DNA of 64,000 bases from Sphaerochaeta halotolerans (lineage in GTDB: Bacteria > Spirochaetota > Spirochaetia > Sphaerochaetales > Sphaerochaetaceae): the NCBI RefSeq assembly GCF_003429665.1, contig NZ_QUWK01000005.1:124001-188000 (forward strand), read 5' to 3'. The translations under genes and the position numbers were made by a program. The notes beneath the pieces were generated by a model that saw only the letters and a list, made by a program, of their open reading frames with translations, was not told the origin of the DNA and made no database searches. How positions within the stretch are numbered: position 1 is the first letter of the stretch; every line of letters starts with the position of its first letter. This document shows, piece after piece, positions 6,144-10,436 of this stretch.

Positions 6144-6764
6144 TCAATGCACCTTCTCAAGCAATCGGTAGAGTTCGGCAAGAAAACTTGCATCATCCTC
6201 TGCAAACGGGGAAGGCTCTTCACTTTCCTCTGTCTCAGCCATAAGCTGTCCCACCCTACTTTGATACTCGTTTTCAAAGGCATGGGAAACATCAGCATCA
6301 GTTGCACTCTCATCTTGGATTTTCCCTATGATGGAGAGACTTGAATCGGTAATGCGCTGTATCCTTTCCAACTCTCTTCCTTGCATCTCCAACAGTTGCA
6401 GTTGCTGTTTTTCTGTAAGTGGAATCTGAGTGGAAGTTGTATGGAGGATGCTAGCCGCAAAATGGGCCATACGTTCCCCGCGCTGTACTCCCGCTTTCTC
6501 CCAGACTGCATAGCCTTCCCGTTCCTTCTGTATGAACACACTCGCCTCACCAAGGAGGTGTAAGGAAAGAACAGCAAGTTCAGACTCCACTATCATAAGT
6601 GGTGTATGGGGTGGAATGGAGGCAAAGAACTTCTCCCTTCCCTTTACTGTATCACATCGTCCTCGTGCATAGTGAGGATGCTTGCCTTCGTGGTCAATAA
6701 CACATAACACATAACGATTTCCAATAATATCGGCTCCTGCAAACCCAGTTTCAATGTTGCTCAT
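6144..6764 (-). CDS. Hypothetical protein with degenerate IS110-transposase-like N-terminal fold
   Basis: 206 residues from the MSNIETG start; the frame stays open upstream to 6923 but would overlap yqeC. Residues ~8-110 follow the pattern of the IS110 DEDD (RuvC-like) domain: GADIIGNRYVLCVID, a central MIVESE in the place of the usual LEATG, and a GERMAHFAASIL end in the place of KTDxxDAxxLA. The first Asp and the Glu are kept but the last two catalytic acids are not, so nuclease activity is unlikely. The C-terminal half is acidic and helical. It converges on the response regulator with a 5 bp gap. The family link is by eye and uncertain. Confidence 0.55.
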   Translation of the reverse strand: MSNIETGFAGADIIGNRYVLCVIDHEGKHPHYARGRCDTVKGREKFFASIPPHTPLMIVESELAVLSLHLLGEASVFIQKEREGYAVWEKAGVQRGERMAHFAASILHTTSTQIPLTEKQQLQLLEMQGRELERIQRITDSSLSIIGKIQDESATDADVSHAFENEYQSRVGQLMAETEESEEPSPFAEDDASFLAELYRLLEKVH

Positions 6765-6858
6765 TGTTCCAGTGTAACCGGGTACAGCGAGGAAACCAGT
6801 GCAGAAAGAAATCAGGGCGATAGTTGCAAGAACACCAGCTGTGGTGCTACAGTAAAGC

Positions 6859-7563
6859 ATGGCGACATTGATAGAATCCCTGCAAAAGCACTTCTCTGGC
6901 AATGAGAGCTGCATCTGCATCACCGGAAGTGGGGGAAAGACTACTGCTCTGATTCAGCTCTCTGAGGCGTATGCAGCACTTCAGAAGCGGGTACTTGTTT
7001 CCACAACCACGAAGGTACGCCACCCTGAAGACAGAGACTACCACTGTGACCACTATTTTTGGGATGAGGCGGTCTTTTCTTATCCATGCAAGAAGGGAGA
7101 GCGGGTTTTCTACGCAAAACGTGGCCCCATCAAGGCTGAAGCGCCTCCCCTTGAAGATCTAGAACGACTGAAAGAATACTATGACGTTCTCATACTTGAA
7201 GCGGATGGTGCACGTGGAAGGGGACTGAAACTTCACAGCGGGAAAGACCCAGTTGTACCCAGCTTTACTACAGCGACTCTGGCAATTGCATCCTTTTCCC
7301 TGTTCGGCCAGAGTCTCAGTGAGCATTGTTTTGGCTGTGAGTCATTGGATGACCGTCTCATCGATGAGGAGACCTATTCCTTGTTGCTTACCCACCCCGA
7401 GGGAATGCAGAAACGTATGAAAGGCGTTTGTGCTATCCTTTTCAACCAGGCAGAGAGAACCGATCGAACCAAGATTGAGAACATCCGCACTCAGTTCCCG
7501 AATCTTCCTTTGTTTTTTGGTTCCCTTGAACAAAATGTTCTCATAGAAAGGAATATTATATGA
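6859..7563 (+). CDS. yqeC: YqeC-type selenium-dependent hydroxylase accessory protein
   Basis: 234 residues with a P-loop (TGSGGKTTAL near residue 25) followed by STTTKVRHP and the characteristic GRGLKLHSGKDPVVP segment of the YqeC family. This family accompanies YqeB in genomes with selenium-dependent molybdenum hydroxylases and is thought to help insert or activate the cofactor. It overlaps the next gene by 4 bp (ATGA), so translation is probably coupled. The hydroxylase structural genes themselves are not in this window. Confidence 0.85.
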   Translation: MATLIESLQKHFSGNESCICITGSGGKTTALIQLSEAYAALQKRVLVSTTTKVRHPEDRDYHCDHYFWDEAVFSYPCKKGERVFYAKRGPIKAEAPPLEDLERLKEYYDVLILEADGARGRGLKLHSGKDPVVPSFTTATLAIASFSLFGQSLSEHCFGCESLDDRLIDEETYSLLLTHPEGMQKRMKGVCAILFNQAERTDRTKIENIRTQFPNLPLFFGSLEQNVLIERNII

Positions 7564-9362
7564 AACACACTGTATTTGAAGTAGCAGCATACTTGAGTGA
7601 ACACAAAGAGGAATTTGTGTATGCAACCATCATCAAGACTGAGGGGTCCACCAGCAGAAGTCAAGGATCGATGGTTATTGATACCAAGGGAAGGATTACC
7701 GGGACCGTCGGGGGAGGAGAACTTGAGGCGTATGTACTCAGCCAGTCCCTCAATCTGATCAGCGCTGATGAGGCATATCGATACATCCACTTCACTGTTC
7801 AGACAGAGGACGAAGTAAGTGTTGGGGTTGTGTATCTCTTTCTCCTCCACTGTACCAGGGAGGAGGATTGGAAGGCCTTCATCGGCTTCAGAAGATGGGA
7901 GTCCTATGAGCTTGACCATGTATTCGGCCTCCAGATGCAACCTTCGGTTACATTGCTCGGACTCTGTGAAGGAGGGGCAACCATCGGGGATGTACATCCT
8001 ACATTTCTCAGTTATGCCCAGGAAGCACTGAATAAAAAGACTTCCACCTTGATAGATACCGGTTCATGGACCTGTCATCTCAGTCTCCCGGTGAATTACC
8101 ACAATCTTCTCTTAATCGGTGGTGGACATGTAAACCAAGCAATCGCGGAACTTGCCCACTTCGTTGGAATTCCTACCCAGGTAGTTGAAACTCGTGAAGA
8201 TTTTGCCACCGAAGACCTCTTTACCTTTTCAAAGAAGAGGGAGGTTGCACCAACACTTGCAGAAGCGCTGAACAACATTGAAACCAACGAATACACAGCA
8301 TGTATCATCGCAAGTCATGCCTTTGGCCCAGAAACCACCAAGCTGTTGCTCAGAAGGAATATTGCCTACCTCGGGGTACTTGGTTCGAGGCACAAGGCGA
8401 AAAAACTGCTTGCTTCACTTTCTCTCGAACAGAAAGATCTCAAGCGGTTGCATTGCCCAATTGGACTGGATATCGGTACCGAGACTCCCCAGGAGATTGC
8501 CCTTTCCGTACTGAGTGAGGTCATGAAGGTCTTCAATAATCGCAGTGGGCAAAGTCTCAAGCACCAGGCAAACAAGATGATTGTCGTACGTGGTGGTGGA
8601 GATTTGGCTACAGGTGTCATCCTCCGTCTCTTTAGAGCGGGGTATTATGTCTTGGTGTTGGAAACCGAGCAACCTACCGTTATCAGGAGAACAGTCAGTA
8701 TTGCACAGGCAATATACAGTGGTACAGTGGTGATAGAAGGGGTGAAAGCCTCCCGTTGCAATGATTTGAAGGACGCCTATACAAAGCTTGATGCAGGAAT
8801 CATCCCTGTCCTAGTTGACCCTAAGGGAGAACAGATCAAGAGAATCAAACCCGTGTGTGTGGTAGATGCCATCATGGCAAAGAAGAATATCGGTACAAAA
8901 ATCACGGATGCTCCTCTGGTTATCGCCCTTGGCCCTGGCTTTGTGGCAAAACAGGATTGTGACCTTGTCATTGAAACGATGCGAGGACATAGCCTTGCCA
9001 GAATCCTTAGCGAAGGTTCAGCAATGGCTAATACAGGAACCCCTGGAGTCATAGAAGGGTTTGGTAAAGAGCGCGTCATCCACAGCCCTGCAGAAGGAAT
9101 CTTCAACAGTGACCACCAGATTGGCGACATGGTAAAGCAAGGCGAGGTCATTGCAAAGGTGGGTGATGTAGATGTCATCGCAACCATCGACGGAAAACTC
9201 AGAGGCTTGCTGAACAATGGGCTGAAGGTGCCCCAGCACTTCAAGATCGCTGACATCGACCCCCGGGGCGAACGTTCTGACCACTTAACAGTCAGTGAAA
9301 AAGCCATGGCTATCGGGGGAGCAGTGCTGGAGGCCATCGACGGCTTCCTCAGCAGAGCATAA
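7560..9362 (+). CDS. yqeB: XdhC-YqeB fusion protein, molybdenum hydroxylase maturation
   Basis: 600 residues with three parts: an XdhC/CoxI-like domain (about 1-160, with the GTVGGGELEA motif), an XdhC Rossmann domain (about 180-320, LLIGGGHVNQAIAELA and PIGLDIGTETPQEIA), and a complete YqeB module (about 338-600, VVRGGGDLATGVILRLF). XdhC binds and sulfurates molybdenum cofactor for xanthine-dehydrogenase-type enzymes; YqeB is linked to selenium-dependent members. The usual Cys-Gly-Gly motif ending the CoxI domain is replaced here by a VSVGVVYLF stretch. YqeB and XdhC are often separate genes. It is translationally coupled to yqeC. Confidence 0.85.
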   Translation: MKHTVFEVAAYLSEHKEEFVYATIIKTEGSTSRSQGSMVIDTKGRITGTVGGGELEAYVLSQSLNLISADEAYRYIHFTVQTEDEVSVGVVYLFLLHCTREEDWKAFIGFRRWESYELDHVFGLQMQPSVTLLGLCEGGATIGDVHPTFLSYAQEALNKKTSTLIDTGSWTCHLSLPVNYHNLLLIGGGHVNQAIAELAHFVGIPTQVVETREDFATEDLFTFSKKREVAPTLAEALNNIETNEYTACIIASHAFGPETTKLLLRRNIAYLGVLGSRHKAKKLLASLSLEQKDLKRLHCPIGLDIGTETPQEIALSVLSEVMKVFNNRSGQSLKHQANKMIVVRGGGDLATGVILRLFRAGYYVLVLETEQPTVIRRTVSIAQAIYSGTVVIEGVKASRCNDLKDAYTKLDAGIIPVLVDPKGEQIKRIKPVCVVDAIMAKKNIGTKITDAPLVIALGPGFVAKQDCDLVIETMRGHSLARILSEGSAMANTGTPGVIEGFGKERVIHSPAEGIFNSDHQIGDMVKQGEVIAKVGDVDVIATIDGKLRGLLNNGLKVPQHFKIADIDPRGERSDHLTVSEKAMAIGGAVLEAIDGFLSRA

Positions 9363-9467
9363 GAAAAACAACACCAGGTGTTTTTCTTACACGCTTCCAT
9401 TATTCTTTACTATAAGCAATGGATATTGTAGTATTAAGCAAAATGACAGCCTTTACCAGGGGGGACC

Positions 9468-10436
9468 ATGGATTCACAACAGTACTATAAACAATTACTC
9501 GAAGCATTGAAGATTGACACCGTTGAAAGAAGAACTGTCTTGCAGGGCCCTTATATCGGTGATGAAGCACTTCTGCAACACAATACGGTCATCGCAACCC
9601 ATTCTAGAAGGAATCATGACTGGAATGATCCCAGCTATCTCACGGAACGACTTGCCACTGATGTACATTTGGTTATCTTTGGAGGGGGTCACATTGCCCT
9701 TGATCTCTACCATCTGGCAGTGGACCTCGCCCTGCAGGTAACGATTGTTGATGATCGCCCTGATTTCTGTAATCAGGAACGCTTTCCTAAAGCCACCTGT
9801 CTTTGCGCCCCGTTTGAAGAGGTCCTGGGAACACAGCAATCGTGGATCCGACCTTACTTCATCATCACCACGCGAGGCCATGCTTATGACCGGCTCTGCC
9901 TGAAGAAAACACTTCGCCTGCCCCACGCATACATCGGGATGATCGGGAGCAAGAAGAAGGTTGCCAACACCTTTGATGCACTGCGGGAAGAACACTACAG
10001 TGAAGCAGAACTCGCAACCGTAAAGGCTCCTATCGGGTTGGATATTGGAGCCGTGACTTCTTCAGAGATTGCCCTCTCCATTCTTGCCCAAGTCATCAGT
10101 GAATACCGCAAGAACGAACAAGCTGTCAGGCTCGATGAACGAATACTTGCGAAACAAGCTACCGGAGAGAGCCATATTCTTGTACGGGTAGTGGAAAAGC
10201 ACGGATCGGCTCCTTGCGAAGTCGGCTTCCAGCTTGCCCTGTTTGCAGACAGGACTCTCATGGGAACGGTTGGGGGTGGAGCGATTGAGGCACGAGCAAT
10301 CAAGGAAGCACAGCGGATGCTCATGGATGCTCAAATGAACGACCATGTAGTTACCTACGATCTGAGCAATGAACATGCTGGTAACATTGGTATGATCTGT
10401 GGTGGTGTGGCTACCCTGCTTTTTCAGCGCAGGTGA
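9468..10436 (+). CDS. XdhC-family protein with permuted domain order
   Basis: 322 residues. The Rossmann half comes first (LVIFGGGHIALDLYHLA at ~70, IGLDIGAVTSSEIALSIL at ~190). The CoxI/XdhC half follows (GTVGGGAIEARAI at ~270) and ends with the cysteine motif GMICGGV at ~310. In ordinary XdhC proteins the CoxI part is N-terminal. This copy keeps the cysteine motif missing from the neighbouring XdhC-YqeB fusion, so the two proteins may complement each other in molybdenum cofactor sulfuration. It is 105 bp downstream of the fusion gene, preceded by a purine-rich GGGGGGA, and its end overlaps the femAB-like gene by 13 bp. Confidence 0.82.
   Translation: MDSQQYYKQLLEALKIDTVERRTVLQGPYIGDEALLQHNTVIATHSRRNHDWNDPSYLTERLATDVHLVIFGGGHIALDLYHLAVDLALQVTIVDDRPDFCNQERFPKATCLCAPFEEVLGTQQSWIRPYFIITTRGHAYDRLCLKKTLRLPHAYIGMIGSKKKVANTFDALREEHYSEAELATVKAPIGLDIGAVTSSEIALSILAQVISEYRKNEQAVRLDERILAKQATGESHILVRVVEKHGSAPCEVGFQLALFADRTLMGTVGGGAIEARAIKEAQRMLMDAQMNDHVVTYDLSNEHAGNIGMICGGVATLLFQRR

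Follow-up and report, generated by a model that had tools for sequence, protein, structure and literature searches.

Two XdhC Proteins next to yqeC

In a stretch of 64,000 nucleotides of Sphaerochaeta halotolerans (contig NZ_QUWK01000005.1, positions 124,001 to 188,000 of the forward strand), called the window below, yqeC is followed by a gene for an XdhC-YqeB fusion protein (F) and then by a gene for a second XdhC protein (R). F is devoid of the conserved CoxI cysteine of the XdhC family, and R carries this cysteine in a protein whose two XdhC halves are permuted (Table 1). The distribution of the cysteine between the two proteins, which recurs in one spirochaete family, is the subject of the present analysis.

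F has the order CoxI, middle part, Rossmann, YqeB. Its Pfam matches, both over cut-off, are to XdhC_CoxI (PF02625, residues 14-71) and XdhC_C (PF13478, residues 183-321) in the usual XdhC order, and the YqeB part matches NCBIfam TIGR03309 over residues 341-593 with 345.6 bits against a cut-off of 220. R has both XdhC domains in the reverse of this order, XdhC_C (68-209) preceding XdhC_CoxI (231-298). An earlier note, made from the letters of this DNA, had claimed that the fusion is without the Cys-Gly-Gly of the CoxI domain and that R has reversed halves and retains MICGG. Both statements are borne out here, and both architectures recur in the family: there is no CGG anywhere in F, whose aligned cysteine column is not C and whose loop is shortened, and R has the cysteine. 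As whole proteins, F and R stay below the NCBIfam cut-offs of NF045664 (171.4 and 240.9 bits, respectively, against 350) and of TIGR02964 (87.6 and 122.7 against 161.6). Among the matches listed, the 2.93-Mb genome has two places for PF02625 and two for PF13478, all within F and R.

Table 1. Features of the yqeC-F-R locus, in coordinates of the window (HMM, hidden Markov model).
Feature	Position	Strand	Basis or remark
yqeC	6859..7563	+	TIGR03172, 117 bits vs cut-off 73; PF19842; 4-base overlap with F
F, Cys-less XdhC-YqeB fusion, 600 residues	7560..9362	+	Pfam and NCBIfam matches
F CoxI lobe, residues 15-90, cysteine loop missing	7602..7829	+	Home-made HMM; aligned Cys column
F Rossmann domain, residues 183-322	8106..8525	+	PF13478; home-made HMM
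F YqeB domain, residues 341-593	8580..9338	+	TIGR03309, 345.6 bits
F-R gap	9363..9467	+	Desulfurase/lyase-like gene here in seven genomes of the genus
R, permuted XdhC, 322 residues	9468..10436	+	Pfam and NCBIfam matches
R Rossmann domain, residues 67-210	9666..10097	+	PF13478; home-made HMM; model vs 2we8
R CoxI lobe, residues 233-315	10164..10412	+	PF02625; home-made HMM
MICGG motif of R, Cys311 (residues 309-313)	10392..10406	+	Read from sequence

Structure searches with the model of R cover its Rossmann part, which matches 2we8 with Z 21.4 over 152 residues. The model of YqeB includes a barrel like that of biotin carriers (5gu9, Z 10.7, root-mean-square deviation 1.2, 65 residues), a predicted fold in line with the resemblance to AccB noted for Clostridioides difficile YqeB (PMC11448449). 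The model of F is poor in residues 1-180 (pLDDT, the predicted local distance difference test score, under 50), so no structural claim is made for its CoxI part.

The start of yqeC is overlapped by a 259-residue open frame on the minus strand (window 6144-6923) with no Pfam match up to an E-value of 1. The DNA around the genes has promoter-like and terminator-like sites in numbers not exceeding those of shuffled sequences (4 against 4.2 and 3 against 3.5, respectively).

Distribution of the Cysteine across the Family

The survey covered 139 genomes of the order, all of one family and many of them drafts. The closest named relatives of F, with 90-91% identity in F, belong to Sphaerochaeta or Sphaerochaetaceae (L009-L011), and loci L009-L013 were not added as genomes beyond G107, G109, G108, G073, and G061. 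TIGR03309 matches in 128 of the 139 genomes (126 above cut-off), PF13478 and PF02625 each match in at least 130, and the stretches around XdhC and YqeB genes provide at least one readable gene of either kind in 131. The cysteine was scored by its column in an alignment of 267 CoxI lobes. This replaced scoring of the letters CGG because R of G105 (CKG) and the lobes of G137 (CSG) and G025 (CWG) keep the cysteine without that motif.

The cysteine is present in 102 of 104 permuted proteins; the other two, of G103 and G112, are truncated by a contig end ahead of the motif. Readable fusions number 84, of which 73 are Cys-less and 11 Cys-bearing, the standalone XdhC proteins of G132 and G130 (CGM, shortened loop) and of G116 (altered motif) not being counted as fusions. 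Most genomes with a Cys-less fusion (67 of the 73) also encode a permuted, Cys-bearing XdhC. The permuted copy is cut at a contig end in two more (again G103 and G112), G058 shows, at a contig end, a fragment of a CoxI lobe with the cysteine, and the drafts G031, G053, and G094 yielded no permuted copy. Nor was a permuted XdhC found in the 11 genomes whose fusion bears the cysteine. The matches listed for these give one place of PF02625 in all 11 and one place of PF13478 in 10, G089 having a second that is outside the listing. The absence of an XdhC from a single genome is unsure because many genomes are drafts. Where a genome has the fusion, the cysteine belongs to either the fusion or the permuted protein and was not seen in both. 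We favour the reading, with a probability of roughly 0.6, that F and R divide between them the work of a single XdhC maturation factor.

Chance, sequencing error, or frame error was considered as the origin of this anatomy and rejected, the same anatomy being found in 73 genomes and both architectures being recurrent. In G110 the fusion is split into two open frames, one of 307 residues for CoxI-Rossmann and one of 280 residues for YqeB (L199 7916-9716; L358 2216-4016).

Direction and Number of Changes

Escherichia coli YqeB (b2875), which is an XdhC-YqeB fusion, keeps CGG; the other XdhC proteins of E. coli lay outside the comparison. A sample of the phylum (392 genomes) has, outside the family, 12 genomes with a frame of at least 530 residues around YqeB, and stretches from all 12 were examined. 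The cysteine is kept in the CoxI lobe beside Rossmann and YqeB in 11 of 11 readable fusions, the twelfth (G378) being cut by a contig end. XdhC_C has one place in eight of these 11 genomes and more in G479, G485, and G443, whose additional XdhC proteins have, where readable, the usual order and the cysteine. Since the cysteine is retained in E. coli YqeB and in all 11 readable fusions from other families of spirochaetes, the fusion most likely had it at first and the loss is derived, as judged from these comparisons of sequence.

The earlier note had named fusions carrying the cysteine motif as an observation contrary to its proposal. Such fusions do occur, in E. coli YqeB, in the 11 genomes of the family, and in the 11 of other spirochaete families. 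The permuted copy is found in none of these 22 spirochaete genomes, which therefore fit complementarity; the Cys-less state would be a derived speciality, and not a rule for YqeB fusions.

A YqeB tree was computed with FastTree with local supports, leaving out YqeB pieces shorter than 200 residues (G022 and others are absent). One change separates the two fusion states in this tree, which has a clade of Cys-bearing fusions (support 99) and a clade of Cys-less fusions that includes free-standing YqeB (support 90). The tree of the Rossmann domain, from which pieces shorter than 95 residues were left out, is short and its forks are weak. It places 103 permuted proteins on one side of a branch with support 52 and the fusions elsewhere. 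The Cys-less label requires 4 changes on it, the Cys-bearing label 3. Alignment A2, in which XdhC Rossmann glycines were seemingly laid on YqeB glycines, was not used.

In G378, which belongs to another spirochaete family, one open frame (L346 6166-7752) matches both YqeC and YqeB and adjoins a piece of XdhC Rossmann domain that is cut by the contig end.

Genes for Selenium and Sulfur Supply

The genes of selenium or sulfur supply, namely selD, the EF2568-type lyase/desulfurase gene, and yedE, mostly adjoin the Cys-bearing protein. Within 60 Cys-less-fusion genomes that have selD, this gene lies at most 6 kb from R in 41 and from F in 2. In the Cys-bearing-fusion genomes selD is at most 6 kb from F in 8 of 11; the other three are G022 and G089, in both of which F is near a contig end, and G090, where neither selD nor a lyase gene was found in the 18.7 kb around F. 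A further 45 genomes have selD and no readable fusion, with selD at most 6 kb from XdhC in 22 and from YqeB in 7.

The EF2568-type (cysteine desulfurase/selenocysteine lyase-type) gene shows a similar arrangement. It stands directly upstream of R in 71 of the 99 genomes with enough upstream sequence (104 carry R in all), usually with an overlap of 4 or 8 bases, and in many R loci yedE and selD lie beyond it. Where F bears the cysteine, the gene follows F directly in 5 of 8 cases. Where F is Cys-less, the gene precedes F in 0 of 69 cases and follows it in 7 of 68; these seven are the yqeC-F-lyase-R rows present in seven genomes of the window's genus. Three lyase-type neighbours that were scored have TIGR01977 (EF2568 type) as their best model with 298, 338, and 381 bits, one of the three exceeding the cut-off of 377, and two yedE neighbours are above the TIGR04112 cut-off. 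The rows around Cys-bearing F are yqeC-F-lyase-selD (G021, G121-G124) or yqeC-F-selD (G098, G102, G027). In the window's own genome an EF2568-type gene directly precedes selD, with yedE divergent, on another contig (G000:C1:38130-40265; L355 6957-10350).

Selenium-Type Hydroxylases and Species without selD

The genes of selenium-dependent molybdenum hydroxylases, whose presence in this genome the earlier note had proposed as a check, were found. TIGR03311 (selenium-dependent xanthine dehydrogenase, 1324 bits) and TIGR03313 (1222 bits) match over cut-off, as do ygfK (TIGR03315, 1428 bits) with the TIGR03313 protein, and XdhA (NF043082). Selenium-type molybdenum hydroxylase genes, as assigned by family, are thus present, and selD (368.7 bits) co-occurs with the TIGR03309 YqeB. 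There are five MoCoBD places in the genome. A short, divergent molybdenum cofactor-binding protein of 652 residues (L319 6727-8682) has only weak matches to hydroxylase models.

Several hydroxylases in one genome, together with the selenium marker YqeB borne by F, would also agree with F and R serving different enzymes independently, R the sulfur-type and F the selenium-type hydroxylases. We regard this as very unlikely, since selD and the lyase gene stand by R and not by F in Cys-less-fusion genomes, and a single XdhC presumably serves several hydroxylases where F keeps its cysteine.

No selD match was found in 18 of the 139 family genomes, including six sister species with YqeB (G107-G110, G114, and G115). 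The EF2568-type model reaches no more than 141-143 bits at its best match in these six, against 403 in the window's genome, and their TIGR03311 enzyme scores 1317-1321 bits. F is whole in five of them, with pairwise ratios of non-synonymous to synonymous substitution rates (dN/dS) of 0.04-0.08, and is in two frames in G110. Either selenium is usable without SelD in these species or the set works with sulfur.

Conservation of the Cys-Less Half

The Cys-less half of F is under purifying selection. In comparisons among the window and six sisters, CoxI has a median dN/dS of 0.048, the middle part of 0.059, Rossmann of 0.028, and YqeB of 0.054. Decay of the Cys-less half was considered as an explanation and is unsupported at these values of 0.03-0.06 by segment. 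In the 73 Cys-less fusions the cysteine stretch is deleted or replaced, and many CoxI positions are kept at 81-100%, among them a glycine, an arginine, GGG, and the glutamate that follows it.

These values bear on the possibility that R alone is the general XdhC for all molybdenum hydroxylases and that YqeB uses the XdhC half of F just as a scaffold or dimer fold, which would take no direct part in transfer of sulfur or selenium. Such a role for R finds an argument in nine genomes, mostly drafts, in which R goes with an unfused YqeB and a single XdhC_C place among the matches listed (G035, G038, G042, G047, G127, G128, G131, G133, and G135, the most complete being G047 with 96% and G133 with 93%), and in R being present in genomes without a YqeB match, such as G138 and G060. 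However, a mere scaffold does not account well for purifying selection on both the CoxI and Rossmann parts of F, nor for the upkeep of GGG and the following glutamate, although S and P of GSxPR are not conserved to this extent. Moreover, separate XdhC genes with an abnormal motif persist in some genomes whose YqeB is unfused, without the cysteine in G126 and altered in G116. We consider this explanation unlikely and retain the shared maturation job of F and R.

Proposed Division of the XdhC Job

Sequence comparison gives good support to F and R as a recurrent division of the XdhC job within one family, that is, to an evolutionary complementarity. In the mechanism that we propose, R, permuted and with its cysteine kept, would take sulfur or selenium from the EF2568-type desulfurase/selenocysteine lyase, SelD belonging to that supply line as well. 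It would put it on the molybdenum cofactor, by analogy with XdhC and NifS4 of Rhodobacter capsulatus. F would descend from a Cys-bearing XdhC-YqeB fusion whose cysteine loop was lost in the lineage with R, and selection would have preserved it as an XdhC half without the cysteine, fused to YqeB. It most likely holds or hands on the cofactor for selenium-type hydroxylases. We infer in this scheme the role of the cysteine, the contact between F and R, the use of selenium rather than sulfur, and the passage via Cys311.

A stricter form is a two-protein relay in trans, in which the lyase charges the cysteine of R and the atom is passed to the cofactor on the Cys-less fusion. This is a tentative idea that we hold with considerable doubt. 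If true, the cysteine would be a carrier of sulfur or selenium, and not an element of the fold or a ligand of the cofactor, a matter left open in a review that describes Cys82 as conserved in almost all XdhC proteins and its role as unclear (PMC2997495).

The earlier note had seen F and R as complementary parts of one machine. The presence of the cysteine in one or the other protein and the position of the supply genes, mostly beside the Cys-bearing one, speak for it; several observations weigh against it. Genomes such as G047 and G133 have R with a free-standing YqeB and a single XdhC_C place among the matches listed, and the six sisters without a selD match or a strong EF2568-type match keep yqeC, F, and R (L196-L199, L202, L203). 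In the window's own clade F and R have no lyase gene between them. Since one change separates the fusion states on the YqeB tree, loss of the cysteine amounts to about one event, and the large number of genomes adds no independent support. GSxPR is also eroded in the Cys-less fusions, with S in 30% and P not the commonest residue. The dN/dS of F is higher in two other small sets, by segment 0.09-0.16 in G095, G099, G100, and G103 and 0.17-0.33 in G094, G096, and G112. As to novelty, both the fusion and the conserved cysteine are already in print: the fusion of YqeB to an XdhC half and the link to selD were published in 2008 (PMC2276186), and E. coli YqeB was named an XdhC homologue in 2010 (PMC2997495).

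It is not known how selenium reaches the molybdenum of these hydroxylases, and a 2024 paper with C. difficile yqeB and yqeC mutants describes a mechanism as hard to envision (PMC11448449). The family offers a natural separation: one protein has the cysteine and, in the majority of relatives, the lyase/selD surroundings, and the other has YqeB with a conserved Cys-less half; in sister genera the two are a single protein. Which protein carries selenium, and whether it does so via the cysteine, thereby becomes directly testable.

Relation to Known Systems

In the one library searched, no title or abstract dealt with a split of the cysteine between two XdhC proteins or with a permuted partner, and nothing was found coupling XdhC with circular permutation. 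A close known system is that of R. capsulatus, in which XdhC binds the cofactor and the desulfurase NifS4 sulfurates it there (PMC2997495), a delivery of sulfur analogous to that proposed for R. The passages of this review on the R. capsulatus pair mention neither YqeB nor selenium, and the split between two proteins is absent from them. E. coli YqeB is, like F, encoded beside yqeC, and also beside mocA; unlike F, it has a shorter XdhC part in addition to its CGG. The selenium set EF2563-EF2571 of Enterococcus faecalis shares YqeB, YqeC, a SirA-like protein, SelD, EF2568, a hydroxylase, and XdhC (PMC2276186, PMC2432076). Its YqeB of 28.5 kDa is unfused, in contrast to F, and no split of the cysteine is described in the parts of these two papers that treat the set.

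Other arrangements are found at further YqeB loci. Loci L028, L030, L052, and L059 of Bacillota encode a single protein with a Cys-less CoxI, a Rossmann domain, and a C-terminal Cys-bearing CoxI, without fusion to YqeB; judged by its order of domains, this architecture is a possible bridge to the permuted form. At L027, L037, L055, L057, and L060, also without a YqeB fusion, the Cys-bearing CoxI lobe has a gene of its own, which adjoins a gene for a Rossmann domain with a Cys-less or unrecognised CoxI part.

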